NCBI RefSeq assembly: GCF_024437735.1
Contig: NZ_JANFQO010000026.1
Location: forward strand, 1-64,000
Reading direction: 5' to 3'
DNA: 64,000 nucleotides
Origin: Tahibacter harae
Lineage (GTDB): Bacteria > Pseudomonadota > Gammaproteobacteria > Xanthomonadales > Rhodanobacteraceae
Shown here: positions 19,285 to 48,400 of the stretch, one piece after another
How positions within the stretch are numbered: the stretch's first letter is position 1
Layout: each line of letters opens with the position of its first letter
Notes under the pieces: model-generated
Databases searched by the model: none
What the model was told of the DNA's origin: nothing
Seen by the model: only the letters and a program-made list of their open reading frames with translations
Made by a program: the position numbers and the translations under genes

Positions 19285-19362
19285 AGCACTCTCCTCCTTT
19301 CTGACGAGGCACCGGGTTGGACGACAGGACGGAACCGGCCCCGGTGCCCGGGCCGCCGCCGA

Positions 19363-19767: not shown

Positions 19768-20312
19768 GCGTGCAACCTCGCCGGGTCGCTGACTTCAAGC
19801 AGGCAAAGCAAGGTATCGACCAGCAGCAGCACGTCCTCGCGCCGGCGCACGTCGACGCCGAACAGCGGCAGGTTGAGGCCGTGGTTTTCCAGGCGCTGGG
19901 CGAAGGCGTCCAGCGCCAGTGCGCCGGGCTCGGCGCAGCGGCCCACGCCGATCACCAGCGGTGCGCGCTTGCCGGCGCCGAAGGCTTCGACAAAGGCATC
20001 GAGCTGGACCAGGGCATCGGCCTGGCTGGCGTCGAGCAGGATCACCACGCCCGCGGCGTTGTGGCCGAGGATGTCCCACATGAAGCGGAAGCGCAGCTGG
20101 CCCGGCGTGCCGTACAGGCGCACGCTGGTCTCCGCATCGATCTCGATGCGGCCGTAGTCCAGACCGGCGGTGGTCAGTTCCTTGTCGAAGGCGGCGCGGT
20201 CGGTGTTGACCACATCGGTGGACACCGGCGCTTCATCGCTGATCGCGGCGATGGCGGTGGTCTTGCCGGCGCCCATCGGGCCGCTGAAGATGATCTTGAA
20301 TTCTTCGCTCAT
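19764..20312 (-). CDS. Small Ras-like (MglA/COG2229-type) GTPase
   Basis: The 182-residue protein has a clean P-loop in IIFSGPMGAGKTTAIAAI (residues about 10-18). A conserved Thr region (APVSTDVVNTDRAAFDK) may act as switch I, and YGTPGQLRFRFMWDIL replaces the DTAGQ switch II. The G4 motif NKxD is not present; the equivalent strand reads LVIGVGRCAEPG, so guanine specificity is uncertain. This matches the short GTPases encoded with Roadblock proteins in many bacteria. It is the second gene in its operon, three bases after the upstream gene. Likely a polarity, motility or signalling switch, by analogy only. Confidence 0.88.
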   Translation of the reverse strand: MSEEFKIIFSGPMGAGKTTAIAAISDEAPVSTDVVNTDRAAFDKELTTAGLDYGRIEIDAETSVRLYGTPGQLRFRFMWDILGHNAAGVVILLDASQADALVQLDAFVEAFGAGKRAPLVIGVGRCAEPGALALDAFAQRLENHGLNLPLFGVDVRRREDVLLLVDTLLCLLEVSDPARLHA

Positions 20313-27645: not shown

Positions 27646-27929
27646 ACAATAAGCCCCCGCGCCGCCCGTTCCTCGCGTGCGAGCGGCGCATGCCGCAAGC
27701 GGGAACAGGCGGCGCGGGCTGCCGGCTTCAGCGCATGTGAGGCCGCGCACGCCCCGGGCCAGAAGGTTTTCCCCGATTGCCGCGGCGGCGGCAGCGGCCG
27801 ATGCTGGGCCCGACGGCGGCCGGCACCCATTCCCCTGCAAGGGCCGCCGTCACCCGCGGCGGCGGCGCAGGGAAGCGTCCCGCGGCGGCCTGGTTTTCGT
27901 GATGCAGTCCGCGATTCGCCGATCGCGTA

Positions 27930-27959
27930 CCGCAGCGGCTGGGAGAACCGCCGCTGCGG
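27930..27959 (+). promoter_or_regulatory. Inverted repeat upstream of the first LuxR-type gene
   Basis: CCGCAGCGG (27930-27938) and CCGCTGCGG (27951-27959) form a perfect 9-bp inverted repeat with a 12-base spacer, 50 bases before the start codon. It may be an operator or a leader hairpin. The rest of 27646-28009 shows nothing else I can name. Confidence 0.4.
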
Positions 27960-28009
27960 CGACAGCCTACCTGCGTGCGGCGTCTCCACCGCCGCAGGCC
28001 AGTCCCTGC

Positions 28010-29134
28010 ATGACCGCTGTTTCCGACCCCGCCGCCCTGCTGCCCGTGATCGACCGCATCTATGCGGCGGCGGCGCGCGAGGTGCCGCTGGATGAAGCCT
28101 TCCAGGCCTTCGCCGAACTGATGGGCGACTTCGTCGCCGCCCTGTTCGTGCACGACCCCGTGCCCGGCGGCGCAGTGATGGAGAGCGCCGCCGGCCTGGA
28201 CCGCCACTGGCCGGGCGAATACAACCGGCGCTGGAGCAGCCGCACCCCGCTGCTGCAGCGCGGCCTGGGCGAACTGATGGCCGGGCGCATCGTCAGCTCC
28301 GAGGACATCATGCCCTGGGACGAGCTGGTCGAAACCGACTACTACCGCGAGTTCTATGCCCCGCTGGGCTGCCGCTACAGCCTGGGCGTCCTGGTCGCCG
28401 GCGACGGCCGCCGCTACGCCTCCCTGGTCACCGCGCGCGGCGAACGCGCCGGCCCTTACCAGGCGCGCCACCGCGCGCTGATCGCGGCAGTGCGCAGCCA
28501 TCTGGGCCGCGCCCTGCACATGCTGGAGTTCTTCGAGGGCGCCACGCTCAGCCTGGACCTGTTCCGCCAGGCCATGGACCAGCTGCCGTTCCCTGTGCTG
28601 CTGCTGGACGACCAGCGCCGCGTCGTCTACGCCAACCAGCGCGCCGCAGCGCGGCTGCAGCAAGGCGACGGTATCGTGGAAAGCCGCGGCCGCCTCAGCG
28701 CCAGCGGCGCCGAGCGCGACAGCTTCGAGCAGGGCTGGAACCAGCTGGTGCAGGACGCGCTGGCCGCCGAAGGCCGCTTCCGCATCCGCGGCAGCGGCGA
28801 TCCGGTTCCGCTGCGGCTGGAAGCGACCCGCATCGGCGTGAGCGGCGCGACCGCGGCCGGCGGCCGCCTGTGGCTGCTGCGCCTGTGCGAGGGCACCTTT
28901 TCCCGGCGCCAGCTCGCCCTGGACTGGCGCACACGCTTCGGCCTGACCGGCTCGGAATGCCGCGTCGGCACCGCCCTGCTCGAACACGGCGATGCGGTCT
29001 CGGTCGCTGCCGCCCTGGGCATGGCCGAAAACACCGTGCGCGCCCACCTCAAGAACATGTTCGCCAAGACCGCCACGCGCAGCCAGGCGGCGCTGGTGCT
29101 GCGGCTGGCAATGGAGGGGCGGCTGGTGGATTGA
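28010..29134 (+). CDS. LuxR-family regulator, three-part (upstream paralogue)
   Basis: The 374-residue protein has an N-terminal sensor-like domain (about 1-190), a PAS-like middle (MDQLPFPVLLLDDQRRVVYA, then NQRAAARLQQGDGIV) and a C-terminal LuxR helix-turn-helix (FGLTGSECRVGTALLEHGD, then VAAALGMAENTVRAHLKNMF). No phospho-acceptor or acyl-lactone-binding signature is visible, so the signal is unknown. It has the same architecture and length as the gene at 42755; the two bracket the giant exported-protein gene. The start is the ATG nearest the conserved region; no ribosome site is evident, and an ATG at 27902 is the alternative. Confidence 0.88.
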   Translation: MTAVSDPAALLPVIDRIYAAAAREVPLDEAFQAFAELMGDFVAALFVHDPVPGGAVMESAAGLDRHWPGEYNRRWSSRTPLLQRGLGELMAGRIVSSEDIMPWDELVETDYYREFYAPLGCRYSLGVLVAGDGRRYASLVTARGERAGPYQARHRALIAAVRSHLGRALHMLEFFEGATLSLDLFRQAMDQLPFPVLLLDDQRRVVYANQRAAARLQQGDGIVESRGRLSASGAERDSFEQGWNQLVQDALAAEGRFRIRGSGDPVPLRLEATRIGVSGATAAGGRLWLLRLCEGTFSRRQLALDWRTRFGLTGSECRVGTALLEHGDAVSVAAALGMAENTVRAHLKNMFAKTATRSQAALVLRLAMEGRLVD

Positions 29135-29407
29135 GTCCGCCGCGCGGATCGCCCGCGCCTGGAGCCCCGCGTGCGCGATGCGGAACCAGGATCAGTGGCG
29201 CGGAATCGTGGAAAGTCCGGAACGTCGCGTACGCGACGGGAAGTGCAGCGCCCGACGCCGGTGCAGCGATGGCGGCCCGCGCCCGTCCTCCTGTCCAGCG
29301 CCGCCATGGAGTGACAGCTGCGCGCGCAGTGCCGCGGATACCGGCGGCCTTTCCGCACACGTGCCGCGCCACACCGCTGCGCGGTCGCCGGTGTTGGGTG
29401 AAGAACC

Positions 29408-29434
29408 AAAAAAAAGCCCGGCACAAGGCCGGGC
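29408..29434 (-). terminator. Intrinsic terminator of the giant exported-protein gene
   Basis: On the minus strand GCCCGGC-CTTGT-GCCGGGC is followed by eight T (29415-29408), about 100 bases after the stop of the 4280-residue gene. This is the best intrinsic terminator in the window. The rest of 29135-29534 holds no supported gene. Confidence 0.88.
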
Positions 29435-29534: not shown

Positions 29535-32500
29535 TTATTCCAGTAGATCCCCCGCCCACAGCAGCAGGCTGCCCGCCGCGCACTGCCAGTCGGCGCCGAC
29601 CGCAGCGGCGGCGTCGCCGCTGAGCTGCAGGCGGCCGCCGGAAGTGCTCAGCGCGAGCACGTCGCTGTCCTGCGGCCAGGACGACCACGCGCCGGCGATG
29701 TCGTAGCCGTCGCGTCCGGCCACGCGCTGGCGCACATAGAGCGCGTCGCCGGCGCGGGCGAACTCAATGGCGAAGCGGCAGCCCTGCTCGGCCAGGCCGC
29801 TCAGCCACAGCTGCGGACGCAGGCCGCGCACCGCGGCCACGCGCAGGCCGGCGACGTGCTGGCCGTCACGGCTGTGCATGGCCAGGCCGGGGCCGGCGGC
29901 GTTGACGCCGTCGCCGCCTTCCTCGAAGCCGTCGCGGAACAGGACCATGTCGGTCTGGTCGCTGGCGCCGGCCGGGCTGCCCGCGGCGCCGGCCGGCGGC
30001 GTCAGGGTCACCGCGTAGATCACGGCCTCGTCCGCGGTCTGCTGCAAAGTGGCCGAGAGCAGGAAGCTGACCGAGCCGCCCGCGGCGATGGTGATGCTCG
30101 CCGGCAGATTGCCGCTGCCGCTGCTGGCCGCGCCGCAGGAACTGCCGCTGCTGGCGGCGCACAGCCAGGTCACGCTGGCGCCGGCGAACTGCGGCGGCAG
30201 GCTGCTGCCCAGGCTGGCCGCGGTGGCGTTGGACGGACCGGCGTTGGCGGCCACGATCAGGTAGTTCAGCACCTGGCCGGCGGCGGCGTAACTGCGGCCG
30301 TCGCTGATGCTCAGGCTGAGGCCGACCTCGGCCGTGGCATTCACGCTGAAGTCCACGGTGCCGCTGATTCCCGCCGCCGCCGCGCGCACGCTTTGCGTGC
30401 CTGGGTTGGCGCCCAGCGTCCAGCCGCCCAGCGTGGCGACGCCGTTGGCATCGGTGTTCACGCTGGCGCCGCTGAGACTGCCGCCGCCGCCGAGCAGGCT
30501 GAAGCTGACCGCGACGCCGGCAACCGGGTTGGTGCCGTCGGTGATGCGCACCGAGGGCTGCGTACCGGGCAGGGCCGCGCCGGCCACCGCGCTGGCGGCG
30601 ATGCTGCCGTTGGCGGCGATGCTGTTGGCCGACGCCGGCGCGATCACCAGCGTGCCGCTGGCCGAGCCTTCGTAGTTGGGATCGTTCACCGTAGCGGCGA
30701 CCGCATAGCTGCCCACGGCCTGCGGCAGCACGGCGCTGCCGTTGTAGCTGACGGCGATGCTGCCGCTGAGCGTGGCCGTGCTGGCGGCGGTGACCGCGGT
30801 CACTGCGCCGAAGGTCTGGCTCAGGTTGCCCAGGGTGACCACCGTGCCGGCCTTGGTGATGACCAGGGTCGCGCTCACCGGCGGCGCGGTGTAGTTGCCT
30901 TCGGCCGGATCCAGCGACACCTGCACCAGATAGCTGCCCGCATTGCGCGGCAGCGGCGTGGCGGCGCCGTTGTACAGCACGACCAGACTGGCCGGATCGG
31001 CCGGCACATCGCCGTCCACCGACGCCGTGCCCGCGCGGTCCAGACCATCGTAGGGCGCAGTCGGCGGCAGGCTCAGGCCCAGGCTGACGGGCTTGGGCGC
31101 GATGCGCAGCGTGGCGCTGCTGGAGCCGCTGAAGTTGCTGCCTTCGCAGCTCGCGCTGACCAGGTACTGGCCCGCGTCCACCGGCGGCGTGCCGTTGCCG
31201 CTGCCGGCGCCGTTGTAGTCGAGGCTGCACACCGCGGCCGTATCCATCGCCAGGCTTGCGCTGCTGCCGTGGGCGGTGCCGTCGTAGACGAAGTCCAGCG
31301 GGCCGAAGGTGACGCCGGACGGCGCGCGGCTGATGGTCAGCGTCGCCGTGGCCGGCGCGCTGCCGGCGTAGTTGGGATCGCTGATCGTCGCCGTGACGCT
31401 GTACTGGCCGGCATCCACCGGCGGCGTCGCGCTGGCCGGATAGACCGTGGGCGCGATGCCGGCATAGCTGACCGTGTAGCTCAGCCCTGCCGGGGCGGCC
31501 GTGGTCGCGGTCACCGCCTGCGGCGCGCCGTTATAGCCGCGGATCAGCGCGCCGCCGACGGCGCCGTCGATGCTGATGGCCGCGCTCGCGGCCGCATCGA
31601 CGACAAGGCTGGCCGTGGCCTGGGCAACAACATGGTCGGTGCTGGTCGTCGCCGCACGCACCAGGTAATTACCCACTGCAGCCGGCGGCGTGGTGCTCTG
31701 CGCATACACCGTGGGCGCGACGCCTTCGTAGGTGACGGCGTAGCTCAGCCCGGCCGGCGTGGTGGTCGCGCTGACCGCGGCCACGCTGGCGCCGCTGTAG
31801 CTGCGGTGGATGCTGCCGTCGGCCGTACCGTCGTCGTCGGTGAGTGCGATGGCCGTGCCGGCGGCCGGCGCGATGGTCAGCACCGCGCTGCCGCTGCCCT
31901 GGTAGTTCGGATCGCTGATGCCGGCGACGACGACATAGCTGCCGGCCGCGGTCGGACAGGCGGCGGCGCCGTCGTAGCTCAGCGTCGTCGCAAGCCCGGC
32001 CGGATGGGTGACCACGCTGGCGCAGCGCGGCGTGCCGTCGTAGCCCTGGCTCAGATTGCCCAGGCTCAGCGTGGCATTGGCGGCGTTCACGACCAGCGTG
32101 CCGCTGGCCGAACCGGAGTACAGCGCGCTGAAGGCCTGCGCGCTGACGCTGTAGCTGCCCGCGTCGGTCGGCGCCGTGGCGCTGGGGCCGTAGACGGTCG
32201 GCGCGATGCCGCTGTAGCTCAATGCCACCGCAACGCCGGGCGGATCGGTGTTGAGCGCGGCCGCGCGCGGGCTGCCGTTGTAGGTCTGGGTCAGGTCGCT
32301 CAGAGTGATGGCGACGCCGCGGGCGCTGATCTCGATGATCTGGTTGCCCAGCGAGAACAGCGTGGTCTCGGTCGCCGCGTCGACCAGCGCGGTGCTCAGG
32401 GTGTACTGGCCCAGGCGGTGGTAGACGCTGCGGTCGGCCATGGTCGCCGCGTAGCCGTCGCCGATCTGGCCGCCGTTGGCCGGCAGGTAGCTGGCGACGA

Positions 32501-35500
32501 GGTCGCTGCCGCTCTGGCTCCACACCAGCGGCACGTAGCCGCTGCCGTCCTGGCGCGCGAAGTCGACATCGGCCGGCGCCAGCACGGCGCCGCCGTTGTC
32601 GTGCAGGCGCAGGCGCACCTTGGCCGGCGGGGGCAGGCGGCCGCCGCTGTTGCTTAGCACCACCGCGCCGAACAGCGGCGTTTCCGCCGCGGCCACGTCG
32701 GGGCCGGCGTGGCCGATGCTCAGCGCCGGCACCGTGGTGACCAGTTCGCTGCGGGCGAACAGGTGATCGTCCACGCTGCCGCGCACTTCGGCCTGGATGC
32801 GGTATTCGCCCGGTTCCAGGCGCAGCGCCAGCGGCACGTTCAGCGGCGTGCCCAGGCTGGGCGCGGGCTGATCGTTGGCCGGCAGGTTGGGATAGCGCAG
32901 GAATACCGCCGCGCGGCCGCCGGCGGTGCCGGTGGTCTTGGCAAAAGCCAGGCTGAAGTAGCCGGACGGGCAATCCGCCGCGTTGCCGTCGCCGAACTGC
33001 ACACAGGCGTCGACATCGCCGGCGCTGATCGGATCGGCATTGCCGTCGTCGATGCGCACGATGGCGAAGCGCGTATGCACGGGCTGGGCGGTGGGCTGGC
33101 CGCTATTGGCCAGGGTCGCGGCGAAGCCGGTGACGTAATCGCCGAACAAGGTGCGCGCCGGCCCGCTCAGGCCCAGGCTCAGGCCCGAGGCGTCGCTGAC
33201 CACCAGCGTGCCGCTGGCCGAGCCCTGCCAGTCCGGTGTGTCCACGGTCGCGGTCACGCCGTAGCTGCCGGCGGCGGTCGGGCCGCTGTTGGCCGGGGTG
33301 TAGTCCAGGCTGTACGGCAGCGCCGGCACCGTGCTGACGCTGGCATCGACATGCAGGCCGGTATACGGCTGCTGCAGATTGCCGAGAGTGACCTGGGCCT
33401 GGCCGCGGCCGACCACGCGGGTCAGCGTATCGCTGGCGTAGAGCGTGTTGGGCGCAGCCGCGCCGCGCACGCCCAGGGCGGCGGTATACGTTGCAGCTTT
33501 GTGGAATACCACACGGAAGCTCACTTCGCCGGCATAGCCCGGGCTGAAATCGAAGCCCGCATCGCCGCCGTTGTCGCCATCGACCAGGTCGCAGCCGGCC
33601 GCATCCAGGCTCAGCGCATACGGATAGGTGGATGAGCCGTCGAAGTTGTATTCGATGCTCAGGTCCGCCGCCGTGGCCGGCTGGGCCGGGCCGGTGCTCA
33701 CGCACAGGCGCTGCTGTTCCAGGCCGGCGATGGCGCCGGCGTTGTTGTGCAGGCTGGCGAAGAAGGCCGCGGGCTCGCCCACGCGCAGGCCGCCGGCGGC
33801 GGCGGCGAGGTCGACCGAGCGGCCGGCCGTGCTGGACGCGACCTGGCTGAGCAGGTTCGCCGCGGCATACAGCAGTCCGCTGGTGCTGCCCTTCACTTCG
33901 GCGGTCACCGCGTAGCTGCCGGCGGCGCTGAAGTTGGCGTTGAAGTAAGTGGTCGCGTCATAGCCGGCCGGCAGGGCGAAGCCGCCGCCCGGACCGAACA
34001 CGGCACAGCCGTTGCCGTCCAGCGACAGCGGCGCGAACGGCCCGCTGCTGCCGGCGCCGTAGCCCAGGCTCAGGTCGGCCGCCGTCGCCGGCACGCCGTT
34101 GCGGGTGACGCAGTACGCCACGCTGACGTTCTCGCCCAGTGCCGTGCCCTGGTTGCGCAGGCGTGCGGTATAGGCCGTATCGACACCGACTTCGACGCCG
34201 CTGCCGGGCCCGTTGAGGCTGAGCTGCGTATCCGTGCCCGGCACCACCGCGGCCACGCCGGTGACCACGCTGTCGCTGCCGTACAGGTCGGCGCCGGTGT
34301 TGCTTTCGGCGCGCAGGCGCAGCGTATAGCTGTCGGCGGTGGCGAAATGCACACGCAGGTTGCGCAGCAGCGCGCTGTTGCCGGCCACGGCGTAGCCGCC
34401 GTCGGGCAGCGGTCCGTCGAGCTTGAACAGCAGGCCGCCGTTGGGGCCGGTGCCGAAGTTCTCCGCCGCGACGAAGCTGCCGCCGCTGCCTTCGTCGGCC
34501 TGCACCGCGAACAGGTCGGCCGCACTGATGGCGCCGCCGCTGCGGGTGATTTCCAGCAGGAAGCGCGCATTCGCCGGCAGCGCCTGCGCGGCAGTGTTGT
34601 CCAGCCGCGCGAGGTAATGCGCGGCGCGGCCGACTTCGACACCCGCGGCGGGGCCGTCCAGATCCGTGACCAGGGTGGAACCGGTGATGCGCAGCCGGGC
34701 GGTAGCCTGGGCGGAGTAATTCGCACTGTCGACCGTACCGCAGACTTCGTAGTCGCCGGCATTGACCGGCGCCAGCGTGCTGCCGGCGCAGGCGTCGCCG
34801 CTGCCCCCGGCCGCGCCGTAGCGCAGCGCGACCGCGGGCGCACCGTCGCAGGCCGGCGCGGTGGCGCTGATCGCCGCTGCGCAGCTGCTGCTGGCCGCGG
34901 CCGGCCGCGGCGTGCCGTTGTAGGTCTGCTCAAGATTGGCGAAGACGATGGCCGGCGCCGCGCGCGTGATCTGCCACTGGCCGGCGCTGGCCGAACTCAG
35001 CACGGCACTGAGGTTGGGATCGCTCAGGCTGGCGTTCCAGGGGTAGCTGCCGGCGTTTGCCGGCGGACTCGGCGCGGGGCTGTAGTCGATGGCGATGGAA
35101 CCGGGCTGCGGTGCACCGGACAGCGCCTGGCTGGGCGTCACGCTCAGTCCCTGCGGCTGGCCGCTGTAGACCGCGCTGAGCGCGCCGGACACGGCCAGTG
35201 TGATCGGCTTGCGTTCCACGCTGTAGGGCGTGCCCGCGCCGCTGGCGATGGTGTAGTCGCTGTCGTTGACCGCGGCGCTGGCGTTGTAGCCGCCGGCCAG
35301 GGTCGGCGCCGCGGCACCGGCGGCGAAGCTGCTGCCGTCGTTGGGACCGTCGCCGGCGCTGTAGCTCAGCTCCACCTTGCCGGCCAGCGCAAGGCCGGTC
35401 AGGTCGTTTGCCGGCATCACGCTGAAGGCCAGCGGCAGGCTGGCGCCGTCGGCATAGACGGCGCCAGCGCCCGCATAGCTCACGGCCAGCGGCTGCTTGA

Positions 35501-38500
35501 GCACGACGGAGAAATTCGTGCTCGCGTACACGGTGCCGCTGTACTGGCCCACCGCCTGCAGCGTGGTGGCATAGGTGCCGGGCAGGCGGAACAGGCTGCG
35601 GCTGGCGCCGCTGAAATCGGCGCCGGCATCGACCGGGAAGCCGTTGCTGATCTGCGGGAACTCGCCGCTGAGCACAAGGCCGCCGCCGGCCGGGTTCAGC
35701 CGCGACAGACACCAGCCGTCCTGCACGTGACCGTTGGCGGCCAGACAGCCCGGATCGGCGAATTCGTTGCGCACGCTGTCGGCGGCGGGTTCGTCCTGCA
35801 GCACGTTGCCGCCCATGGGCTGGCCGGCGCTGGGCAGGCTGGAGGTGGCACGGGTGATCGCGTAGCGCAGTTTGACCGGCTCGGGCACCGCGCCGCCGCT
35901 GTTCTGCACGCGCACGGCATAGCCCTGCAGGTTGTAGGTGAGGCCGTCGTTGCCCGGCTGCGGCGTGACGCTGAGCGCGACGCTGGCCGCGGCGAAGCCG
36001 AACTCGACCCGGCCCAGCGCCGCCGGTGCGCCCGGCGGCGCTTCCGGCGCCAGCGGATCGTCGTGGTAGGTGCGCACCTGCAGATCGGCGATCTGCGCCG
36101 CGCTCATGTCGCGCGGCAGTACCGGCGTGCCGGCCGGCGTGGCGACGAAGCCGTTGTCCAGCGCGATCACATCGGCGGGGAACGGCTTGAGCGCACTGGC
36201 GGCATAGCCGGCGAACACCGCCGGCGCCGCGCCGCTGACGCAGCCGGCGCTGGTGGCCGAACTGGGGCAGTCGCTGGGATCGAGGTAGAGGTAATGGGCG
36301 AAGGCGCCGGCGAAGCGGTTGGCATCCGCCGAGCCGGCCGTGGCCCCGCCCAGGCGGACCACGCCGGGCGCCGGGCGGCTGGCGCGGTAATCGTGATCGG
36401 CGAAATAGACCGCCACGCCGCGCGCGGCCGGGCCGGCCGCGCCGTTGAATTGGTTGCCGCGCACGTCGGCTTCGATGCGGGCGAAGGCCAGCGGCAGGCC
36501 GCCGAACACCTTGGTATTGATCCACAGGTGGACAAAGTCGCCTGCCGCCGGCGCATCGAACTGATTGTCCTGCAGATGCCAGCTCTGGCTGTTCTGCACT
36601 GCCACGCCGATGGCATGGCCGCTGAAATGGTTATTGCCGATGTGCACATAGGCATTGCTGTGCTGCACGCTCTTGATGCCGAGCGAACGCAGCGCGGGAA
36701 TGGCCGGCGCGAAATCGTTGCCGTCGACCTCGAACAGGCCCTGGGCCTCGCCCGCCTCCAGGCCGGCGCCGGAGAAGGTGTTGCCGCTGACCAGCACGCG
36801 GCCGTTGTTGTAGCGCAGGTTGGCGTCCTGGGAGCCGGCGGTGATGCGGTTGTTGTCCAGCCACAGCACCGGCGCGATGCCGTCGGTGGCGAGACTGGGC
36901 GGCCCCTGCACCGGCGGCGTGGCCGGCGCATCGTCGAATTCGACGCCGGAGCCGAACAGGCGCAGGTCCGCTCCGCTGCCGGAGCCTTCGATGGTGTTGT
37001 TGCGCACGACCAGACCGGACAGGGCGGCACTGCCCTGGGCGTAGCCGCGGCCGTTGAGGCTGAGCGCATGACGCTGGGCGAACGGCGCCAGCGGCGGATC
37101 GGCCAGGTTGGAATCGACCGCGCGGATCGTATTGCCTTCGATCACCAGGCCGCTGGGCGTCTCGCCGCCGGGCAGCGCGGCGATGGCCGTGCCCAGCCTG
37201 TCCAGGTCGATGCGGAATTCGAGATTGTCCACGGTCACGTCGCGCGCCAGCACGCGCAGCACGGCGGGTGCGCCGCTGACGCTGGCCGGCGCGCTCAGCA
37301 CCGGCGCATCCGGCGCGCCGGCCGCGCCGCTGCGGGTGATGCGCACGCGCTTGGTCACGTCGGTCTGCGCCGCCAGCACCACGCCGTCGCTGATGCGCAG
37401 CACATGGCCGTTGAGCGTGGTGGCATCGTCGATGGCCGCCTGCAGCGAGCAGAAGGTGCGGCCGGTGTCGGCATTGGTGACGACGACGTTCATCGGCGCC
37501 GCGTTCGGACGCAGGTCGATGTCGCGCACGCTGCTGCCGTTGGTACCGCTGACGCTGCTGCCGTCGATCGTGTTGCTGCCGATGATGGCGCAGGTGAACT
37601 GGCTGTTGCCGCGGCCGAAATAGGCATTGGCCGCGGCCTGGTCGCCGTCGGCCGGCGGCAGCGGCGTATTGCCGGCCTGGCGCTGGATGGCGATGTCGCT
37701 GGCGGACACCGTATTGCCTTCGACGCGCGACTGCAGGCCTTCGATCACGATGCCGTAGCCGTCGAAATCCGCCGCCGGCTGGCTGATGCCGCTGACCGTG
37801 TTGTTGCGCACGACCACGCCTTGGGGCACATCCCCGTTGAGCGCCGCATCGCGCGCGCGGCGGATCACGGCGATGCCGGAAAGATCGCGGCTGTCTACCG
37901 GCGCCACCGTGCGCAACACATGGTTGTCCTCGACCACGATGGCGCCCGAACCCGCCGCCGCCGGCGTGGCCAGGCCGCTGCCGGAAGGATTGTTCAGGGT
38001 GATGCCGAAGCGGCCGTTGTCCTGTACGCGGTTGTGGTGGATATGCGTCACGCCCGGGCCTTCGGCGCCGAGCACGCCCATGCCGGCGTCGCCGTTGTCG
38101 ATCACCAGGTTGTTGCGCATGACCACGCCGCTGGCGGCGCCGTCGAGCAGTTCCATGCCGGCCAGGCTGTTGTTGGCCACATGGTTGTTGTCCAGCACGA
38201 AATTGGTCTTGCGCGCATCCCACACCGCGATGCCGCGGCGCTGGTTGTCGTGCGTGCTCACATGCGAGATGCGCACATCGTCGAGCAGGCTGCCCACGTC
38301 CAGCAGCACGCCGCCGCCGATGCCGCCGGCGGTGCCGCACCAACTCAGCTCCGTGGTGTAGTTGGCCGCCTGGAACGGCGCGTCGGGATCGACGTCGGCC
38401 AGGCTGGCGTCGCCGATGCGCAGGCCGTCGGGCTCGCTGCCGGAGCCGGGCGTGGCGAAGATGCAGCTGCCGTCGAAGCGGGTCACGCGCAGTTGCTTGA

Positions 38501-41500
38501 TGGTGACGTCCTGCGCGCCGACCACGCTGATGCCGTTGCCGGCCAGGCGCACGCCGTTGACGTCGGCGCCGTCGATCTCCGACACGATGGCGCCGCCCTG
38601 CAGGCTGCCGCGCAGCACCAGGCCGGGCAAGGTGGCCGGAATCACCACCGATTCGCGGAAGCGGCCCTGGCCCAGCACGATGGCGTTGCCCGGCCCGGCC
38701 GCGGCGATCGCGGCGGCAATGCTGGAATGCAGCGCCGGCGTACCGCTTTCGCTGGCGTCGGCGTAGCGCCGTATCGCATCGTTGACGAAGGCGCGCGCCA
38801 CGCCGCCGTTGGCGACCAGCGTGCCGCTGACTTCGATCACGGGCTGGGTGCCGGTGGCGGCGAACTGCTCGAAGCCGCTGACGCCTTCGAGCAGGCCGTT
38901 GAAGGTATTGGTGCCGCAGAGTTCCACCGCGTCCACGGCCCAGCCGCCGGTCTGGTCGAAGGCGTAGACGCCGTATTCCTGCACGCCCGCGGCCGGAGTT
39001 TCGCTGAAGGTGTTGTCGCAGATGCGCACGTTGCTCAGCGTGGTGCCGGTCCGCGCACGCAGGGTGATGCCGTTGGCATTGATGCGGCGATTGACCGGCG
39101 CCGGATTGACCCGGCCGCTGCCGTTGTCGGCGAACACCGACTGGCGGATTTCCACATTGTCGATCAGGCTGCCCGCGGCGGAAGTCTTGAGCCAGATGCC
39201 GCCGCCGCCCGTGTAATTGAGTTCATCGCCGCCGGGCGCCGCGCCTATGGGCGCATTGCCGCTGAAGCTGCTGGTCTGGATCAGCACGTTGCGGATCGCG
39301 CTGTTGCTGGCCGGCGCGCCGATATGGTTGACCGAGAAGCCGGCGCCGGAATTGCCGTCGAAGCTGGAGCCGCTGATGACAAGGCCGTCCAGGCTGGCAT
39401 TCTCGGCGAACAGCAGGCCGGCCTGGACATAGCCGCCCGGGTCGTTCACCGGCGGCGTGTTGCCATTGCCGTCGAAATGGCTGTCGACGATGCGCAGGTC
39501 GCGGGTCACGGTGGAACCCGGCGCGGCGTAGGCGATCATGCCGCTGCGCGCGTTGTCCGAAGCCGACACGCGCTCCAGCGTGAGGTAGCTCTGGCTGCCC
39601 GTGAGCACGATGCCGTCGCCGGCCGGATTGGATACGCGCAGGTCGCGCACGGTCAGGCGCTGGCTGGCGGAGCTGCCGCCGGCGGCCAGCGTCAGCGTCG
39701 CGCCGATGACGGTGTCGGCCGCGCCGGCACCGTCGCCGATCAGGCTGACCTCGCGATCGACCAGACCGGCGCCGTAACTACCCTTGGCGATATAGACCAC
39801 GCCGCCGGCCGCGGTATGCGCGACGGCGTCGTTGATCGTGGCGAAGGCGTTGATGCCGTAGTACACCGTTCCCGGCGCGACCGCGCCGTGGCTGAAGCTC
39901 AGCGCGGCGCCGTGGGGCTGGCCGGTGTAGGCGTCGTCGACATAAGTCGCGCTTTCGCTGCCGCTGAAGCCGTAGTCGACCAGGCCCAGGGCCGCGTTCG
40001 CCGCGTCGTCGTAGGTGTGCGCCTGCAGCGCCAGGCGCTGGGCCGCGCTCATACCGGCGGGGAAGGCGCCGTCGTACAGATTGCCGGCAGCGCTGACATT
40101 GCCCGCGAAGGGCCGCACGCGCGTATCCGGAATCGCGCCCACGCCGGGATAGTTCAGCAGGCCGCAGCTCGTGCTGCCGGCAGTGTCGCAACTGTGATCG
40201 TCCAGGCGGAAATAGCGCTGGTGCTTGCCGTCGAAGGTGTTTTCCTGGCCTGGCGTATTGCCGCCGAAGATCAGGCTGGCGTAGACGGCGGCGCCGCCCG
40301 CCTCGTTGTCGTTGATGAATTCGACGGCGCGGCCGGCATTGGCCGCAGTGGCGGCGTAGAAATCATTGCCCTGCGCAGTCAGCGCGAACGGCTGCGGCGG
40401 GCTGGGCGGCGCATCGGTGGTGATTTCCTTGTTGCTGACCACCAGGCTGACGAAGTCGGCCGCCGCAGCCAGCGGCAGGAACACGTTGTCGCGCAGCTGC
40501 ACGCCGGGCCAGTTCTGGATCAGCACGCCGCGGTAGCCGCCGGCATGGTCCAGGAACTGGTTGTTGCTGACGGTCAGCGGCACGCCGGCGTCGTTGTGCA
40601 CCAGGCGCAGCAGCGAGAAATCCGCCGGGTTCGGCGAGGGCGCCGCGGCGGCGTAGGCATCGGCATTGGGGACCGCGCGCACTTCGTTGTTGTCGAACAG
40701 GATGGCGCTGACGCCGGCATTGGGCGAGGAAATCTGCGCGCCGCGGCCGCGCAGGTGGTTGTCGGCGATGGTCACGCTGGTGGCGGTGGAAACGCCGGGC
40801 ACCACGGTGGGGAAGCGCACGATCAGATCCTGCGTGCCCGAGACGATGGTATTGCCGCGCAGTACGCCCAGGCCGCGGTCCATCTGTATGCCGGCGCGGA
40901 AGGCGGCGCCGCCGCTGGCTTCGACCAGGTTGTCCTCGATGCGCACGCTGCGGCCGTCGCGGATGGTGGCGCCGACGGTGTTGTTGACGTGGTTGATCGA
41001 GATCGCATTGGTGAAGCGGAAAGTCGACGCCGCCGCGCCGGACTGGCTGGAGACGAAGCGGTTGCCGCGCACCAGCAGGCCCTCGATGTCGCCGGCGGCG
41101 ACCACGCCTTCGGCGACGTAGGTCTTGTCGGCGGCGAAGTGCAGGTTTTCCACGGCCACGTCGCGCACGTCGTTGACGTAGAGCAGGGCCTGGTTGGTGC
41201 CGCCGCTCTGGCGCGTGAGCACCGGCCGGTTAGCGCCTTCGCCGAGCAGGCGCAGGCCGCGCTTGGCGACGACCACGTTCTCGTTGTACGTGCCGTCGGC
41301 GATGCGGATGGTGTTCCACGGCGTGGCCTGGGCCACGGCGTAATTGATCGTCGCGCAGGGCGCGGACGGATTGCTGCAGTCGCCGCTGTCGCTGCCGCCG
41401 TTGGCAGCGAAGCGTTCGCCCTCGAAGCCTGCGCCTATGGCGCTGCCGCTGCCCGGCGTCACGCTGAGATCGTCGATGAACACGCCTGCCGGCCGGTTCA

Positions 41501-42377
41501 GCGCGAAGGTGCTGCCAGGATTGCGGTCGTTCAGATGATCCGGATTCTCGACCAGGCGGAAGCCCAGCCGGGTCAGGGTGACCTTGGTGCCCGGCGCCGC
41601 GAACGGACCGGCCAGGTAGGCGTCTTCCCAGCTGTCCATGCTGCCGGAAGTCCACACCGTGGCGCCGGCGCCGTCGAACACGGTGTAGGTGATCAGATCG
41701 TTGCGTGCGCCGGGCACCAGCTGGGCGGAGACCTGCAGGCGGTACCAGGTGTCGTGGGCCAGGGCGCCGGACTGGCGGATGTCGTAGCGCACGCCGGCAT
41801 CGTCGAACGGCGGCGGGTCGGTATTGGTCCAGCCGCTGCCCTGGCTGATGCCGACTACCTGCACCGCGAGCACGCCGCCGCTGTCGCGGATCGCCGCGTA
41901 GGTCAGGCGCGCGCCGGGCGCGTCGCTGAGCGAGCTGGAGACCACCAGGCCGTCGTTGCCGGCCGGTACGCGGAACCAGAATCCGGCCTGGACCTGGCTG
42001 CTGGGCCCCGCTCCTTCCTGCACCGAGGCGAAGGCCGGGCTCAGCACGCTGTTGACGCAGCCCTCGTGGAACCAGTTCGACACGCGCCAGGACTGGCGTC
42101 CCGTATGCGCCAGCGCCGGCGTGATTTCCTGATCGTAATTGGCCGCGCCGCAGTTGATGCTCCAGCCGCCCTGGCCGTGCAGCGAGGCACCCAGCGGGCG
42201 GTCGTCCGCCGCGGTCCAGCCGCCGCCGGGCTGGGGATTGCTCTGCCCCGCCGTGAACGGACCGACCGTGCGCGCCGGCGTGGCATTGAACAGTTCGGCC
42301 TGCGCCGTGCCGGCGCTCAGGCAGGCAAACGCGGCGAGCGCCGCCAGGCGCCCGCGATGGTGCAGAAAGGAAATCAT
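29535..42377 (-). CDS. Giant exported beta-helix / MBG-repeat protein (4280 residues)
   Basis: A 12.8-kb gene. ATG 42377 follows GGGAG. Signal peptide: RLAALAAFACLSAGTAQA, cut near residue 27. Residues about 30-310 look like a lectin/jelly-roll domain. Residues about 325-2030 are three or four right-handed parallel beta-helix blocks, each opened by a segment like CATINYAVAQATPWNTIRIA and packed with NNxF/NxV turns. Residues about 2130-3360 mix MBG-type domains (LEQTYNGTPRP, LQQPYTGL) with about six Ig-like units of roughly 140 residues. Residues 3360-3920 are consecutive MBG domains (LSQGYDGTPRC, SDPNYQGSGSA). Then come a Big-1-like domain (to about 4010), a DUF11-like domain, the motif LFRDGFEEG near 4144 and a C-terminal domain of 130 residues. 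No sorting or autotransporter barrel is evident. Probably a surface or secreted adhesin or glycan-binding protein. Confidence 0.93.
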   Translation of the reverse strand: MISFLHHRGRLAALAAFACLSAGTAQAELFNATPARTVGPFTAGQSNPQPGGGWTAADDRPLGASLHGQGGWSINCGAANYDQEITPALAHTGRQSWRVSNWFHEGCVNSVLSPAFASVQEGAGPSSQVQAGFWFRVPAGNDGLVVSSSLSDAPGARLTYAAIRDSGGVLAVQVVGISQGSGWTNTDPPPFDDAGVRYDIRQSGALAHDTWYRLQVSAQLVPGARNDLITYTVFDGAGATVWTSGSMDSWEDAYLAGPFAAPGTKVTLTRLGFRLVENPDHLNDRNPGSTFALNRPAGVFIDDLSVTPGSGSAIGAGFEGERFAANGGSDSGDCSNPSAPCATINYAVAQATPWNTIRIADGTYNENVVVAKRGLRLLGEGANRPVLTRQSGGTNQALLYVNDVRDVAVENLHFAADKTYVAEGVVAAGDIEGLLVRGNRFVSSQSGAAASTFRFTNAISINHVNNTVGATIRDGRSVRIEDNLVEASGGAAFRAGIQMDRGLGVLRGNTIVSGTQDLIVRFPTVVPGVSTATSVTIADNHLRGRGAQISSPNAGVSAILFDNNEVRAVPNADAYAAAAPSPNPADFSLLRLVHNDAGVPLTVSNNQFLDHAGGYRGVLIQNWPGVQLRDNVFLPLAAAADFVSLVVSNKEITTDAPPSPPQPFALTAQGNDFYAATAANAGRAVEFINDNEAGGAAVYASLIFGGNTPGQENTFDGKHQRYFRLDDHSCDTAGSTSCGLLNYPGVGAIPDTRVRPFAGNVSAAGNLYDGAFPAGMSAAQRLALQAHTYDDAANAALGLVDYGFSGSESATYVDDAYTGQPHGAALSFSHGAVAPGTVYYGINAFATINDAVAHTAAGGVVYIAKGSYGAGLVDREVSLIGDGAGAADTVIGATLTLAAGGSSASQRLTVRDLRVSNPAGDGIVLTGSQSYLTLERVSASDNARSGMIAYAAPGSTVTRDLRIVDSHFDGNGNTPPVNDPGGYVQAGLLFAENASLDGLVISGSSFDGNSGAGFSVNHIGAPASNSAIRNVLIQTSSFSGNAPIGAAPGGDELNYTGGGGIWLKTSAAGSLIDNVEIRQSVFADNGSGRVNPAPVNRRINANGITLRARTGTTLSNVRICDNTFSETPAAGVQEYGVYAFDQTGGWAVDAVELCGTNTFNGLLEGVSGFEQFAATGTQPVIEVSGTLVANGGVARAFVNDAIRRYADASESGTPALHSSIAAAIAAAGPGNAIVLGQGRFRESVVIPATLPGLVLRGSLQGGAIVSEIDGADVNGVRLAGNGISVVGAQDVTIKQLRVTRFDGSCIFATPGSGSEPDGLRIGDASLADVDPDAPFQAANYTTELSWCGTAGGIGGGVLLDVGSLLDDVRISHVSTHDNQRRGIAVWDARKTNFVLDNNHVANNSLAGMELLDGAASGVVMRNNLVIDNGDAGMGVLGAEGPGVTHIHHNRVQDNGRFGITLNNPSGSGLATPAAAGSGAIVVEDNHVLRTVAPVDSRDLSGIAVIRRARDAALNGDVPQGVVVRNNTVSGISQPAADFDGYGIVIEGLQSRVEGNTVSASDIAIQRQAGNTPLPPADGDQAAANAYFGRGNSQFTCAIIGSNTIDGSSVSGTNGSSVRDIDLRPNAAPMNVVVTNADTGRTFCSLQAAIDDATTLNGHVLRISDGVVLAAQTDVTKRVRITRSGAAGAPDAPVLSAPASVSGAPAVLRVLARDVTVDNLEFRIDLDRLGTAIAALPGGETPSGLVIEGNTIRAVDSNLADPPLAPFAQRHALSLNGRGYAQGSAALSGLVVRNNTIEGSGSGADLRLFGSGVEFDDAPATPPVQGPPSLATDGIAPVLWLDNNRITAGSQDANLRYNNGRVLVSGNTFSGAGLEAGEAQGLFEVDGNDFAPAIPALRSLGIKSVQHSNAYVHIGNNHFSGHAIGVAVQNSQSWHLQDNQFDAPAAGDFVHLWINTKVFGGLPLAFARIEADVRGNQFNGAAGPAARGVAVYFADHDYRASRPAPGVVRLGGATAGSADANRFAGAFAHYLYLDPSDCPSSATSAGCVSGAAPAVFAGYAASALKPFPADVIALDNGFVATPAGTPVLPRDMSAAQIADLQVRTYHDDPLAPEAPPGAPAALGRVEFGFAAASVALSVTPQPGNDGLTYNLQGYAVRVQNSGGAVPEPVKLRYAITRATSSLPSAGQPMGGNVLQDEPAADSVRNEFADPGCLAANGHVQDGWCLSRLNPAGGGLVLSGEFPQISNGFPVDAGADFSGASRSLFRLPGTYATTLQAVGQYSGTVYASTNFSVVLKQPLAVSYAGAGAVYADGASLPLAFSVMPANDLTGLALAGKVELSYSAGDGPNDGSSFAAGAAAPTLAGGYNASAAVNDSDYTIASGAGTPYSVERKPITLAVSGALSAVYSGQPQGLSVTPSQALSGAPQPGSIAIDYSPAPSPPANAGSYPWNASLSDPNLSAVLSSASAGQWQITRAAPAIVFANLEQTYNGTPRPAAASSSCAAAISATAPACDGAPAVALRYGAAGGSGDACAGSTLAPVNAGDYEVCGTVDSANYSAQATARLRITGSTLVTDLDGPAAGVEVGRAAHYLARLDNTAAQALPANARFLLEITRSGGAISAADLFAVQADEGSGGSFVAAENFGTGPNGGLLFKLDGPLPDGGYAVAGNSALLRNLRVHFATADSYTLRLRAESNTGADLYGSDSVVTGVAAVVPGTDTQLSLNGPGSGVEVGVDTAYTARLRNQGTALGENVSVAYCVTRNGVPATAADLSLGYGAGSSGPFAPLSLDGNGCAVFGPGGGFALPAGYDATTYFNANFSAAGSYAVTAEVKGSTSGLLYAAANLLSQVASSTAGRSVDLAAAAGGLRVGEPAAFFASLHNNAGAIAGLEQQRLCVSTGPAQPATAADLSIEYNFDGSSTYPYALSLDAAGCDLVDGDNGGDAGFDFSPGYAGEVSFRVVFHKAATYTAALGVRGAAAPNTLYASDTLTRVVGRGQAQVTLGNLQQPYTGLHVDASVSTVPALPYSLDYTPANSGPTAAGSYGVTATVDTPDWQGSASGTLVVSDASGLSLGLSGPARTLFGDYVTGFAATLANSGQPTAQPVHTRFAIVRIDDGNADPISAGDVDACVQFGDGNAADCPSGYFSLAFAKTTGTAGGRAAVFLRYPNLPANDQPAPSLGTPLNVPLALRLEPGEYRIQAEVRGSVDDHLFARSELVTTVPALSIGHAGPDVAAAETPLFGAVVLSNSGGRLPPPAKVRLRLHDNGGAVLAPADVDFARQDGSGYVPLVWSQSGSDLVASYLPANGGQIGDGYAATMADRSVYHRLGQYTLSTALVDAATETTLFSLGNQIIEISARGVAITLSDLTQTYNGSPRAAALNTDPPGVAVALSYSGIAPTVYGPSATAPTDAGSYSVSAQAFSALYSGSASGTLVVNAANATLSLGNLSQGYDGTPRCASVVTHPAGLATTLSYDGAAACPTAAGSYVVVAGISDPNYQGSGSAVLTIAPAAGTAIALTDDDGTADGSIHRSYSGASVAAVSATTTPAGLSYAVTYEGVAPTVYAQSTTPPAAVGNYLVRAATTSTDHVVAQATASLVVDAAASAAISIDGAVGGALIRGYNGAPQAVTATTAAPAGLSYTVSYAGIAPTVYPASATPPVDAGQYSVTATISDPNYAGSAPATATLTISRAPSGVTFGPLDFVYDGTAHGSSASLAMDTAAVCSLDYNGAGSGNGTPPVDAGQYLVSASCEGSNFSGSSSATLRIAPKPVSLGLSLPPTAPYDGLDRAGTASVDGDVPADPASLVVLYNGAATPLPRNAGSYLVQVSLDPAEGNYTAPPVSATLVITKAGTVVTLGNLSQTFGAVTAVTAASTATLSGSIAVSYNGSAVLPQAVGSYAVAATVNDPNYEGSASGTLVIAPASANSIAANGSIAASAVAGAALPGTQPSVRITDGTNPVAGVAVSFSLLGGGGSLSGASVNTDANGVATLGGWTLGANPGTQSVRAAAAGISGTVDFSVNATAEVGLSLSISDGRSYAAAGQVLNYLIVAANAGPSNATAASLGSSLPPQFAGASVTWLCAASSGSSCGAASSGSGNLPASITIAAGGSVSFLLSATLQQTADEAVIYAVTLTPPAGAAGSPAGASDQTDMVLFRDGFEEGGDGVNAAGPGLAMHSRDGQHVAGLRVAAVRGLRPQLWLSGLAEQGCRFAIEFARAGDALYVRQRVAGRDGYDIAGAWSSWPQDSDVLALSTSGGRLQLSGDAAAAVGADWQCAAGSLLLWAGDLLE

Positions 42378-42597
42378 CGAGAACTCCCGATGCGGACTGC
42401 GAGATGACGGACTTGCCGCGGTGCGGCGCGGGAAGGCAGGCAGGGCGAGGCCGCTGCGGCCCGGCGTGGCCGGGCCCAGGCGTCCGCGGCGTCAGCCGCG
42501 GACGAGCGCGCGTCCCTGCGCACGGGAATTCCCCGATCGATCCGGTTCATCTCGCCCCCCTGTACGGCGCTGGGTGATGCGCCGCAAGCTGACTGCG

Positions 42598-42754: not shown

Positions 42755-43876
42755 ATGGACGCCATGCAGGGGAAAGGCGGCTCCGAACTGATCGAACTGG
42801 CCTATGCGGCAATCGAGGACACGCGCTGCTGGCAGCTGCTGGCCGCCGCGCTGGCGCGGCGCTACGACGCCGGCCAGGCCGTGGTACTGCTGCGCCGGCA
42901 GGGCAATCCGGCCGCCGATGTCGCCGCCTGGGCGCGGCCGCAGGACGGCAGTTATCTGGCGCATTACCAGGCGCTGGACCCGTTCCTGGAACCGGCTCTG
43001 GTGGAGCAGATGAGCCGCCAGCCGCGGGCCTGGCTGTCGCAGCAGCTCATTGACGAACGCGAGCTGCGCGGCAGCGTGTTCTACAACGAATTCCTGCGCC
43101 CGCGCGGCAACCTGTTCTGGGGCTGCGGCGGCAACTACGTGCTCGGCGCCGGCCTGCGCCTGCAGATCGGCGTGCTGCGCGACAAGGCCCTGGGCCAGTT
43201 CGACGAAGCCGACCGCAGCAGCATGGACGAGATCGTGCGCCATGCGCAGCGTGCCGCCGGCCTGGCCCGGCGCCTGGACGACCTGCAGCTGGAGGCGCGC
43301 TACCAGGCCGCGGTGCAGGACAACCTGCTCGACGCCGTGCTCGCGCTGGATGCCGCCGACCGCATCGTGCAGCGCAATGCGCGCGCCGCGGCCTTGCTGG
43401 ACGGCCATGCCGGCGATGCGCGCTTCAGCGTGCGCAGCCTGCGCCTGGCCGGCGCCGCGGAGCAGCAGCGCCTGCACGAGGCGCTGGCGCGCGTGCGCGC
43501 GGCCGGCGGCGGCGATTCGCTGCGCCTGCTGCGCGCCAAGCCGCTGCCGCCGCTGTGCGTGGTGATCGTGCCGGCGGCGGACGCGGGCGCCGGCTGCCTG
43601 CTGCTGTTCCTGCGCGATCCGCGCTGGCCGCAGCACCTGCCCGACAGCGCATTGTGCGAGCTGTTCCAGCTGACCCAGGCACAGGCGCGCGTCTGCGCCG
43701 CGCTGGTGCGCGGCGAAGCGGCCGAGACCATCGCCGCGGACCTGGGCGTGGCGGTCAACACGGTGCGTTCACATATCAAACTGGCGATGGAGCGTCTGGG
43801 CGTGAATCGTCAGTCCGAGCTGGTGCGCCACCTCGGCGCGGCGCTGCCGGCGCTGATCGCCGCCGCGCCGCGCTAG
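42755..43876 (+). CDS. LuxR-family regulator, three-part (downstream paralogue)
   Basis: The 373-residue protein starts at ATG 42755. The N-terminal ~190 residues form a sensor-like domain (LIELAYAAIEDTRCWQLLAA; LRGSVFYNEFLRPRGNLFWG). A PAS-like middle reads NLLDAVLALDAADRIVQRNA. The C-terminal LuxR helix-turn-helix is FQLTQAQARVCAALVRGEA, then ADLGVAVNTVRSHIKLAMER. Architecture and length match the regulator at 28010. It is transcribed away from the giant exported-protein gene, so it is well placed to control it. The ligand is unknown. Confidence 0.9.
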   Translation: MDAMQGKGGSELIELAYAAIEDTRCWQLLAAALARRYDAGQAVVLLRRQGNPAADVAAWARPQDGSYLAHYQALDPFLEPALVEQMSRQPRAWLSQQLIDERELRGSVFYNEFLRPRGNLFWGCGGNYVLGAGLRLQIGVLRDKALGQFDEADRSSMDEIVRHAQRAAGLARRLDDLQLEARYQAAVQDNLLDAVLALDAADRIVQRNARAAALLDGHAGDARFSVRSLRLAGAAEQQRLHEALARVRAAGGGDSLRLLRAKPLPPLCVVIVPAADAGAGCLLLFLRDPRWPQHLPDSALCELFQLTQAQARVCAALVRGEAAETIAADLGVAVNTVRSHIKLAMERLGVNRQSELVRHLGAALPALIAAAPR

Positions 43877-45465: not shown

Positions 45466-48400
45466 ATGTCCGACTCTTGCCTGATCCGCCTGTTCCTGGC
45501 TGCCTGTCTGGCCGCCTGCACCAGCGCCCAGGGCGCGCCCGCACCGCCCGCCTATGCCACCGGCGCCGACCTGCGCTTTGAAGCCAATCAGGGCCAGTTC
45601 GCCGGCAGCGTCGATTTCCTCGCACGCGGCCCGCACTACGAAGTGGCCCTGGACGGTGCCGCGGCCACCCTGCTGCTGGCCGCGCCCGGGCCGGCCCGCG
45701 CGACGCGGCCGCTGGTGATCCGCGCCGAGGGAGCCCGCGCCACGGCCAGGGCCAAAGCCGCGCGGCCTTACGCCAGCCGCACGAATTACCTGTCCGGCGG
45801 GAAATCCGCCTGGCATCGCGATGTGACCAACTACGCCGAGGTCAGTTATTCCCGCGTCTATCCCGGCATAGACCTGGTCTACTACGGCAGCGAAGGCCGC
45901 CTGGAATTCGATTTCCGCGTCGCTCCGAAGGCTGATCCCGGCCATATCCGCCTGGCCATCGAAGGCGCCGATTCAGTGCGCCTGGACGACAACGGCGACC
46001 TGCGCCTGAGCCTGGCCGGCCAGGAGGTGATCCAGCATGCGCCGGTTGCCTATCAGTTGGGCCGCGACGGCAGCCGCGAGCGGCGCGAGGCGCGCTACGT
46101 ACTCGACGGTGAAAAACAGGTGCGGCTGGCACTAGGCGAATATGACCGCCGTCGTGAACTGGCGATCGATCCGGTGATCACTTATGCGAGCTACTTCGGC
46201 GGCGCGTTCACCGATACCGCTTATGCGCTGCGGACCGATCCCGCCGGCAACCTGTACCTGCTCGCGTCCACCTATTCGTCAGGCCTGGGCAGCGCTAACG
46301 GCCACACACCGGACTATCGCAGCGAACGCTACGCCTACGTCTCATGGAATGGCTGCTTCGGCTGTGCCGACGGTCCGCCGGGCTGGTCGCAGGTCGCGCG
46401 CACGGAGTACACGCGCAGCCAGACCCTGCTGGTGACCAAGTTCGCGCCCGACGGCCGCTCGATTATCTACGCGACTTACATCAACGGCGCGGAGCAGCTG
46501 ATTCTCGCCGGCAAGGAAGCCGCCGTATCCCCCAGCGGCGAACTGTTCCTCGCGTTCTCCCTGTACAACCCCACGCCGACACTGCCGCTGGTCAATCCCC
46601 AGGCGACCACGGGGCCGGGCTGGGCCGCGCGCCTCAATGCCGCCGGCAACGGCTTCGTCTACGCCAGCTACTATCCCTACAACTTCGAGCGCAGTGTCGC
46701 CGTGGACGGCAGCGACCGGCTGGTGGTCGGTGCCTCTACCATCAACAGCACGTTCCCGACCGTCAATCAGATACCCGGCCAGACCTGTCCCAGCGGTCAG
46801 AACATGGGCGTGGTGCGCCTGGGTGCCGCGGGCGCGGTGGACTTCGCCGGCTGCCTGGGCGGCACCAGCAGCGACAACGTCCGCGCCGTCGCCGTGGATG
46901 CCAGCAATGACATCTACCTGTTCGGCCGCACCGCTTCCAGCAACTTCCCGGCGGTCAATCCATTGCCCGGCGCGCCGACCGGCGGCGGCTATTCGCTGGC
47001 GCTGGTACGCATCGACGGCACTACCCGGGCCATCGAATTCAGCAGCCGCTTCGGCAACAACGACGGCAGTTCATATGCGTCCGACATGGTGTTGGCGCCC
47101 GGTGGGCGCGTCGTCATCGCCGGCACCACTTGGTCGTCGCGGCTGCAGGCCGTGAACGCATTCCAGCCCAACCTGGCCATGCCGCCAGACAGCTATCTCA
47201 ACGACGGCTACGGCAGTTGCGCCGACTACAACTATGCCTGCGCCGACTTCGACTACTACCTCGCCAGCATAGATCCGAACACCTCCAGCGTCGTCTTCTC
47301 CACCTATTTCGGCGGCCATGCCAGCGAACCCAATCTGGCGGCGCTCGCGGTGGACAGCGCCGGCTATATCCACCTGCTGGGCGGCACCCTTTCCAGCGAC
47401 CTGCCGCTGCGCCAGCCGCTGCAGGCCAGTTTCGGCGGCACGTCGGATGTGCTGCTGGCGCGCTTTTCGCCGCAGGGCCGCCTGAACTTTTCCACTTATA
47501 TTGGCGGCCCCAATGCGGACACCGCAGCCAACGCCTCCGGTGCGATAACGCCCGCCCCGGGCGGCGGTGTATGGCTGGCCACGAACGCCCAGGCCGGCTT
47601 CCCGGTCACCGGCGATGCCTTGCAGCCAGCCGCGGCCGGCGACTATGACGTGGCCCTGGCGCGCATCAGCTTCAGCGGCCTGACCGACAGCGACGGCGAC
47701 GGCGTGCCCGACGCCAGCGATTTCGCCCCGGCCAATGCGGCCGAGTGGGAGAACCACGACGGCGACGCAATCGGTGACAACGCCGACACCGACGACGACA
47801 ACGACACCTTCGCCGACGCGAACGACCGCTTCCCGTTCGACCCGGCGGAACACCTGGACAGCGACAACGATGGCAAGGGCGACAACGGCGACCGCTTTCC
47901 CAGCATCGCCCTGGACAAATACGACTTCGACAACGACGGCACCGGCGACAACGCCGACACGGACGCCGACAACGACGGTGTGCTCTACGACGGGATCAAC
48001 TACGTGTACGACGATCGCTTTCCGCTGGATGCCAGTGAAAGCGTCGACAGCGACAACGACGGCATCGGCGACAATGCCGACCCGGATCGCGACAACGACG
48101 GCCTGGCCAACGCCAGCGATCCACTGCCAGGCAATCCGGACGAGCCCAAGGCCACTTTCACCGGCTTCCATGTCGGCGATACGACCACCTTCCGCAAGCC
48201 CCTGCCGCACGGCTTCGACGCCATCTACGACTGGGACCACACCTGGACCGCCGCCAGCGACAGCACCGCGGATGGCCCGCTCAAAGGCTACGCGCTGACC
48301 AGCCGCCAGCTCGGCCACAACGAGACCAGCGGCGTGAAGGCGCGTACCTGCATCACCGACGAACTTTCCTTCGACGCCCGCGTCAGCAGCGCTCCCGGGG

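Follow-up and report, generated by a model that had tools for sequence, protein, structure and literature searches.

A giant fibrillar-adhesin-like protein of Tahibacter harae bears an FxDGFE signature that co-occurs with a second type II secretion system in Lysobacterales

Fibrillar adhesins are very long proteins with a signal peptide and repeated stalk domains, among which DUF11 and an MBG family (PF17883) are counted (PMC8286594, PMC9210967). Many of them have no known anchor, and anchor motifs that have escaped recognition are expected (PMC9210967). The giant protein of Tahibacter harae described here is a member of this already known kind: it comprises 4,280 residues, combines a signal peptide with ten MBG_3 stretches and a DUF11 domain, and has relatives in several genera. 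It differs from fibrillar adhesins in that it has no known anchor and bears an FxDGFE signature together with a tail domain; its adhesive role is putative.

Short C-terminal signatures that recur in a genome on dozens of exported proteins without mutual relationship are familiar from the sorting tags GlyGly-CTERM, MYXO-CTERM and PEP-CTERM, which are paired with rhombosortase, myxosortase and exosortase, respectively (PMC3237569, PMC11980579, PMC1569441). Such tags occur sporadically, track one machinery, and are exchanged for one another on homologous proteins of different lineages, and FxDGFE shares these traits. Unlike them, it comes with neither a membrane helix nor a basic cluster, can stand away from the terminus or at the N-terminus, and tracks a secretin class of the type II secretion system (T2SS) instead of a known membrane protease.

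The choice of cargo by T2SSs is unsettled. According to the prevailing view, their substrates share no common linear signal, though in PelI a nine-residue exposed loop makes contact with GspC and GspD and serves as a signal (PMC7949064). T2SS-dependent surface adhesins exist, InvL among them (PMC12802150). The T2SS locus of interest here, termed class A, resembles the Xanthomonas T2SS in that both its GspD and its GspE are bona fide. Trees place the presumed Xcs secretin as an outgroup to class A and the presumed Xps secretin together with class B (genus names inferred); unlike the Xcs-like genomes, which are tagless, class-A genomes bear FxDGFE genome-wide. What is new concerns the supposedly missing anchor: the giant carries FRDGFE, which is part of a genome-wide signature.

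Gene and domain architecture of the giant protein

The window, i.e., the whole 64,000-nt stretch of contig NZ_JANFQO010000026.1 that was analysed, carries on its minus strand one continuous reading frame that runs from ATG to TAA over 4,280 codons (29535–42377; 4,318 codons from stop to stop), in agreement with the single gene claimed by an earlier note, in which no strand was named. Third-position G+C remains at 0.89–0.93 over the full length without any frame switch, and no N occurs anywhere in the window; the gene is real and intact. An antisense plus-strand frame of 2,886 codons (33747–42407) was dismissed as a by-product of high G+C. Downstream of the giant, an intrinsic terminator (CCCGGC-CTTGT-GCCGGG plus a T run) is found on the same strand at 29407–29433. 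A LuxR-type regulator lies on either side of the gene: that at 42755–43876 is divergent from the start of the giant, and that past its end (27677–29134) contains a PAS domain. Elsewhere in the window, a small GTPase-like gene and two small genes on the minus strand (18925–20312) may, judging from their translations, resemble MglA with roadblock proteins.

The features that follow all lie on the minus strand. The protein begins with a clear Sec signal peptide, MISFLHHRGRLAALAAFACLSAGTAQA (residues 1–27, 42297–42377; read from the sequence without a dedicated predictor), which bears out its description as exported. It is followed by a beta-rich domain (residues 28–310, 41448–42296) recognised by homology to L101 and L091 and modelled with low confidence, and by a first beta-helix block (residues 317–727, 40197–41429; pLDDT mostly 75–94), which Foldseek matched, by fold only, to the polysaccharide-active helices RbmB and AlgE6. 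Further beta-helix blocks, supported by homologues and four stretches of Pfam Beta_helix (1e-30; the best at residues 1281–1464), extend over residues ~836–2110 (36048–39872, outer limits approximate). About ten MBG domains (PF18887, MBG_3, 10 stretches, 6e-117) come next: two at residues 2398–2566 (34680–35186), one at residues 2994–3064 (33186–33398), and an array with six matches at residues 3357–3916 (30630–32309). The mixed beta-helix and MBG-repeat architecture read earlier from the letters is thus matched by Pfam.

At the C-terminal end, a Big_1-like domain (residues 3943–4009, 30351–30551; Pfam E 4e-4) and an Ig-like DUF11 domain (residues 4015–4144, 29946–30335) gave weak Pfam matches under cut-off. 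DUF11 has been renamed CLIPPER (PMC12617251), and the modelled domain superposed on the CLIPPER crystal structure 9ifr with Z 12.4 over 118 residues at 2.5 Å. DUF11 is followed by VLFRDGFE-EGGDG, comprising the FRDGFE tag (residues 4147–4152, 29922–29939; the pattern common to the whole genome), and then by a GGDG linker with a beta-rich tail domain (residues 4153–4280, 29538–29921) that is kept in 17 homologues. The model of the C-terminus consists of an Ig domain and a small beta domain of moderate confidence, with FRDGFE-EGGDG as a low-confidence stretch between them. We dropped the idea that the tag forms the last strand of DUF11, as the model sets FRDGFE just past that strand. No fold could be assigned to the tail, since Foldseek and VIA-align rows fell mostly on the DUF11 part, and a profile of the whole C-terminal module found no match among PDB chains by sequence. 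Segment-wise structure prediction, proposed as a check in the earlier note, thus succeeded for beta-helix block 1 and the C-terminal Ig domain and yielded a low-confidence model for the N-terminal domain.

No barrel or known anchor had been noticed in the protein, and this held against Pfam and the NCBIfam sorting-tag models, none of which matched. Pfam also returned no TPS (Haemagg_act) domain up to E 0.1, and no C-terminal beta-barrel, RTX repeats or other secretion domain. The statement that export past the outer membrane is not evident is incomplete: it passes over a C-terminal feature, the unannotated FxDGFE signature, whose distribution in the order coincides with that of a second T2SS.

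The N-terminal half of the giant has no close copy among seven other genomes of its genus, and partial relatives were found in other genera. Modular relatives of ~0.9 to >3.5 kaa, often in tandem, occur in several genera, so that the architecture is not unique. Using a profile built from a five-row alignment of the tail, we found the module DUF11-[LIV]F.[DN]G[FL]E-GGDG-tail in giant modular proteins of Dokdonella, Rudaea, Pseudolysobacter, Pseudofulvimonas and unclassified Lysobacterales. Two paralogues in the same genome (contigs C7 and C1) combine DUF11 and the motif with a diverged tail. A second large protein (C12:92000–108000; L081, L123), with a 2,591-codon frame and weak MBG matches, ends in a variant of the tag, IFRNGLQ, plus 11 residues.

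The FxDGFE signature in the T. harae genome

Across the genome, the pattern of F, any residue, a third residue of the [DNSGEKR] type and GFE occurs at 46 sites, compared with one for a reversed-pattern control; about 0.03–0.08 C-terminal sites are expected by chance. Some 37 sites lie 0–11 residues from the stop codon, three are followed by a tail of 128–156 residues, and two are N-terminal, directly after the signal peptide. The tag of the giant is not terminal, lying 128 residues before the end. In the window, a neighbouring exported protein (DUF7948/SBBP; plus strand, 45466–48618) matches the pattern and ends in CIFQGGFE-stop (tag at 48598–48615). In DUF1800-like proteins from two different families of bacteria, L030 (C5:122354–122371) and L139 (genome G071), the tag stands at the mature N-terminus in place of the C-terminus. 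A DNA-level origin of the motif was ruled out: all four Gly codons and both codons each of Phe, Glu and Asp are used, and because codons vary in this way among sites, the tag is conserved at the protein level.

A signal peptide was detected in 38 of 42 tagged frames, close variants included (by a crude rule; a few are doubtful with the frame cut off at the 5' end), and ~40 further proteins with a signal peptide in this genome share the signature of the giant. With the tag removed, the tagged proteins fall into 25 clusters, mutually unrelated at E 1e-5. They include a subtilase, a possible trypsin-like protease, endonucleases, a glucose/sorbosone dehydrogenase, kelch and FG-GAP propellers, Calx-beta proteins and lamin-tail proteins, and several carry NCBI 'choice-of-anchor' domains. 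One of them, L024, which ends in FADGFEVNR, is a strong homologue of a MYXO-CTERM family (267 bits), and L107 shows weak homology to proteins that have rhombosortase tags elsewhere. NCBIfam sorting-tag models gave no C-terminal match on the giant or on ten tagged proteins, and the listed tags have neither a C-terminal hydrophobic membrane helix nor a basic cluster. Our literature search found no prior description of the FxDGFE motif, although one query was swamped by an unrelated word and an earlier report is possible.

Co-distribution with class-A type II secretion

Outside the own genus, pattern counts in 299 genomes from the phylum did not exceed 10, near the control. Counts in 109 related genomes were bimodal, at either 10–113 or 0–7. 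Placement was narrow in five genomes of another family, f4, where 35 of 36 sites lay 0–6 residues from the stop and the exception was an N-terminal tag on a DUF1800-like protein. T2SS secretins (TIGR02517) are nearly universal, whereas a second secretin, class A, is not. T. harae encodes a class-A gspD (C15:54305–56062) with adjoining gspE; both products pass their NCBIfam equivalog cut-offs (GspD 587 vs 351 bits, GspE 678 vs 630 bits), and in genome G051 gspC adjoins the pair.

Class-A GspD was present in 40 of 43 tag-rich and 7 of 66 tag-poor genomes. The resulting two-by-two counts (poor without A, poor with A, rich without A, rich with A) were 59/7/3/40 by genome (Fisher p 5e-19) and 29/2/1/21 by genus (p 1.6e-11), with shared ancestry ignored in both. 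The tag-rich genomes without a class-A match (G003, G042, G399) are fragmented into 180–830 contigs and 85–90% complete. Our gene profiling against the tag covered secretins, and the true partner might be any gene that is inherited along with them. At 4 of 11 loci (L185, L188, L192, L193), genes within ~10 kb of class-A gspDE end in the tag or in a sequence close to it (GFQ, GFE, GFD).

The seven tag-poor genomes with class A belong to two genera, four to g35 and three to g25. In g35, homologues of the tagged dehydrogenase (L203–L205) end in IFQDRFE or IFGDRFE, from which we predicted a genome-wide FxDRFE and tested it by counts: F.[DN]RFE sites numbered 45, 19, 83 and 10 in the g35 genomes, compared with 0–6 in ten other genomes. 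The motif lay within 6 residues of the stop at 9 of 12 g35 loci read and at none of 18 others. The g35 FxDRFE loci are L203, L204, L205, L222, L223, L231–L234, L238, L240 and L241. Dehydrogenase homologues from tag-rich genomes bear the tag or a near variant in seven of eight cases; those of seven class-A-less genomes, perhaps not all of them orthologues, are tagless. Genus g25 (L191, G031:C47), in which the genes of an Xcs-like or class-A-like T2SS are arranged differently, has neither FxDGFE nor FxDRFE and may employ a third variant.

Every tag-bearing genome sampled for the GspD tree lies inside the class-A clade. Its outgroups are the g25 secretin and the Xcs-like copy of f2 genomes, both groups tagless, with 77% bootstrap for the node that excludes the g25 secretin from class A. 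In the tree of class-B secretins, two groups that lack class A, namely the genera of this kind in family f1 (99%) and family f8 (100%), are nested among class-A-positive lineages; joint loss of tag and class A has therefore probably happened at least twice, as far as these trees indicate.

Possible roles of the tag

Since the peptide ends dozens of exported proteins that are unrelated to one another, and hardly ever occurs in bacteria without a second T2SS, it probably serves in cargo recognition by that system or a partner. We lean, with moderate confidence, towards the giant being an FxDGFE-tagged fibrillar surface protein exported by type II secretion, its tag most likely recognised, directly or via a partner, by the class-A T2SS. 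An N-terminal Sec or Tat signal, as expected of T2SS substrates, is present in the giant and, by the crude rule, in most tagged proteins. The giant would cross the inner membrane by Sec and form an adhesin-like exported rod, in which the N-terminal beta-helix domains probably bind polysaccharide and the MBG and Ig-like domains make up the stalk. A short flexible FxDGFE tag would be exposed just past the C-terminal Ig domain and act as a lineage-specific, mostly C-terminal targeting signal, as on dozens of unrelated Sec-exported Lysobacterales proteins, and the class-A T2SS, with its gspD and gspE on contig C15, would carry the folded protein over the outer membrane. The frame, its domains, the tag with its placement and its conservation as a peptide, and the co-distribution with class-A GspD are shown by the sequences, whereas export by T2SS-A, surface display and glycan binding are inferred; the dominance of the cell surface envisaged in the earlier note is conjectural. 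Counting against the role of class A are the three tag-rich genomes without a class-A match, the modest support of the g25 node, the shared history of clades, the N-terminal tags of DUF1800-like proteins and the non-terminal tag of the giant, and co-distribution does not by itself establish function. As the tag of the giant is not terminal, its tail would have to be tolerated, or tag and tail would constitute a longer form of the signal. More tentatively, and with the odds slightly against it, FxDGFE (FxDRFE in one genus) might serve one T2SS class as a common linear signal for secretion.

The T2SS could instead only transport these proteins, with the tag being read after export as a surface-retention or processing signal by an enzyme or receptor co-inherited with T2SS-A, as has been considered for GlyGly-CTERM and rhombosortase. 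FxDGFE is a candidate surface anchor of the giant. The tagged proteins resemble carriers of anchoring tags elsewhere, the N-terminal tag of DUF1800-like proteins fits an epitope readable in several positions, and for GlyGly-CTERM, T2SS components score high in profiling while the cognate enzyme is another protein (PMC3237569). We nevertheless regard this as rather unlikely, as the tag lacks the membrane helix and basic cluster, and the conserved genes next to those class-A loci that were examined resemble, by their translations, housekeeping genes, with no candidate enzyme among them.

That tag and T2SS-A are unrelated ancestral traits co-distributed by common descent, the tag acting in folding or stability or marking modular assembly, would explain why the signal lies mostly between large clades of non-independent genomes. 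It fits poorly with at least two nested joint losses, with g35 changing the tag yet keeping class A, with the tagless outgroup secretins of g25 and Xcs, and with the presence of the tag on 25 unrelated protein clusters, and we consider it quite improbable. Other giant adhesins are carried by two-partner secretion, autotransport and type I secretion; as Pfam detected neither a TPS nor a barrel nor an RTX domain along the 4,280 residues, and the neighbours examined include neither TpsB nor an ABC exporter, such a route is very improbable for this protein.

Recognition of FxDGFE by the class-A T2SS or its partner, if true, would give a likely destination to many unannotated Lysobacterales proteins, the giant included. 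With a six-residue tag that tracks one T2SS subclass and is altered in one genus that keeps this subclass, the choice of cargo by a T2SS becomes directly testable.
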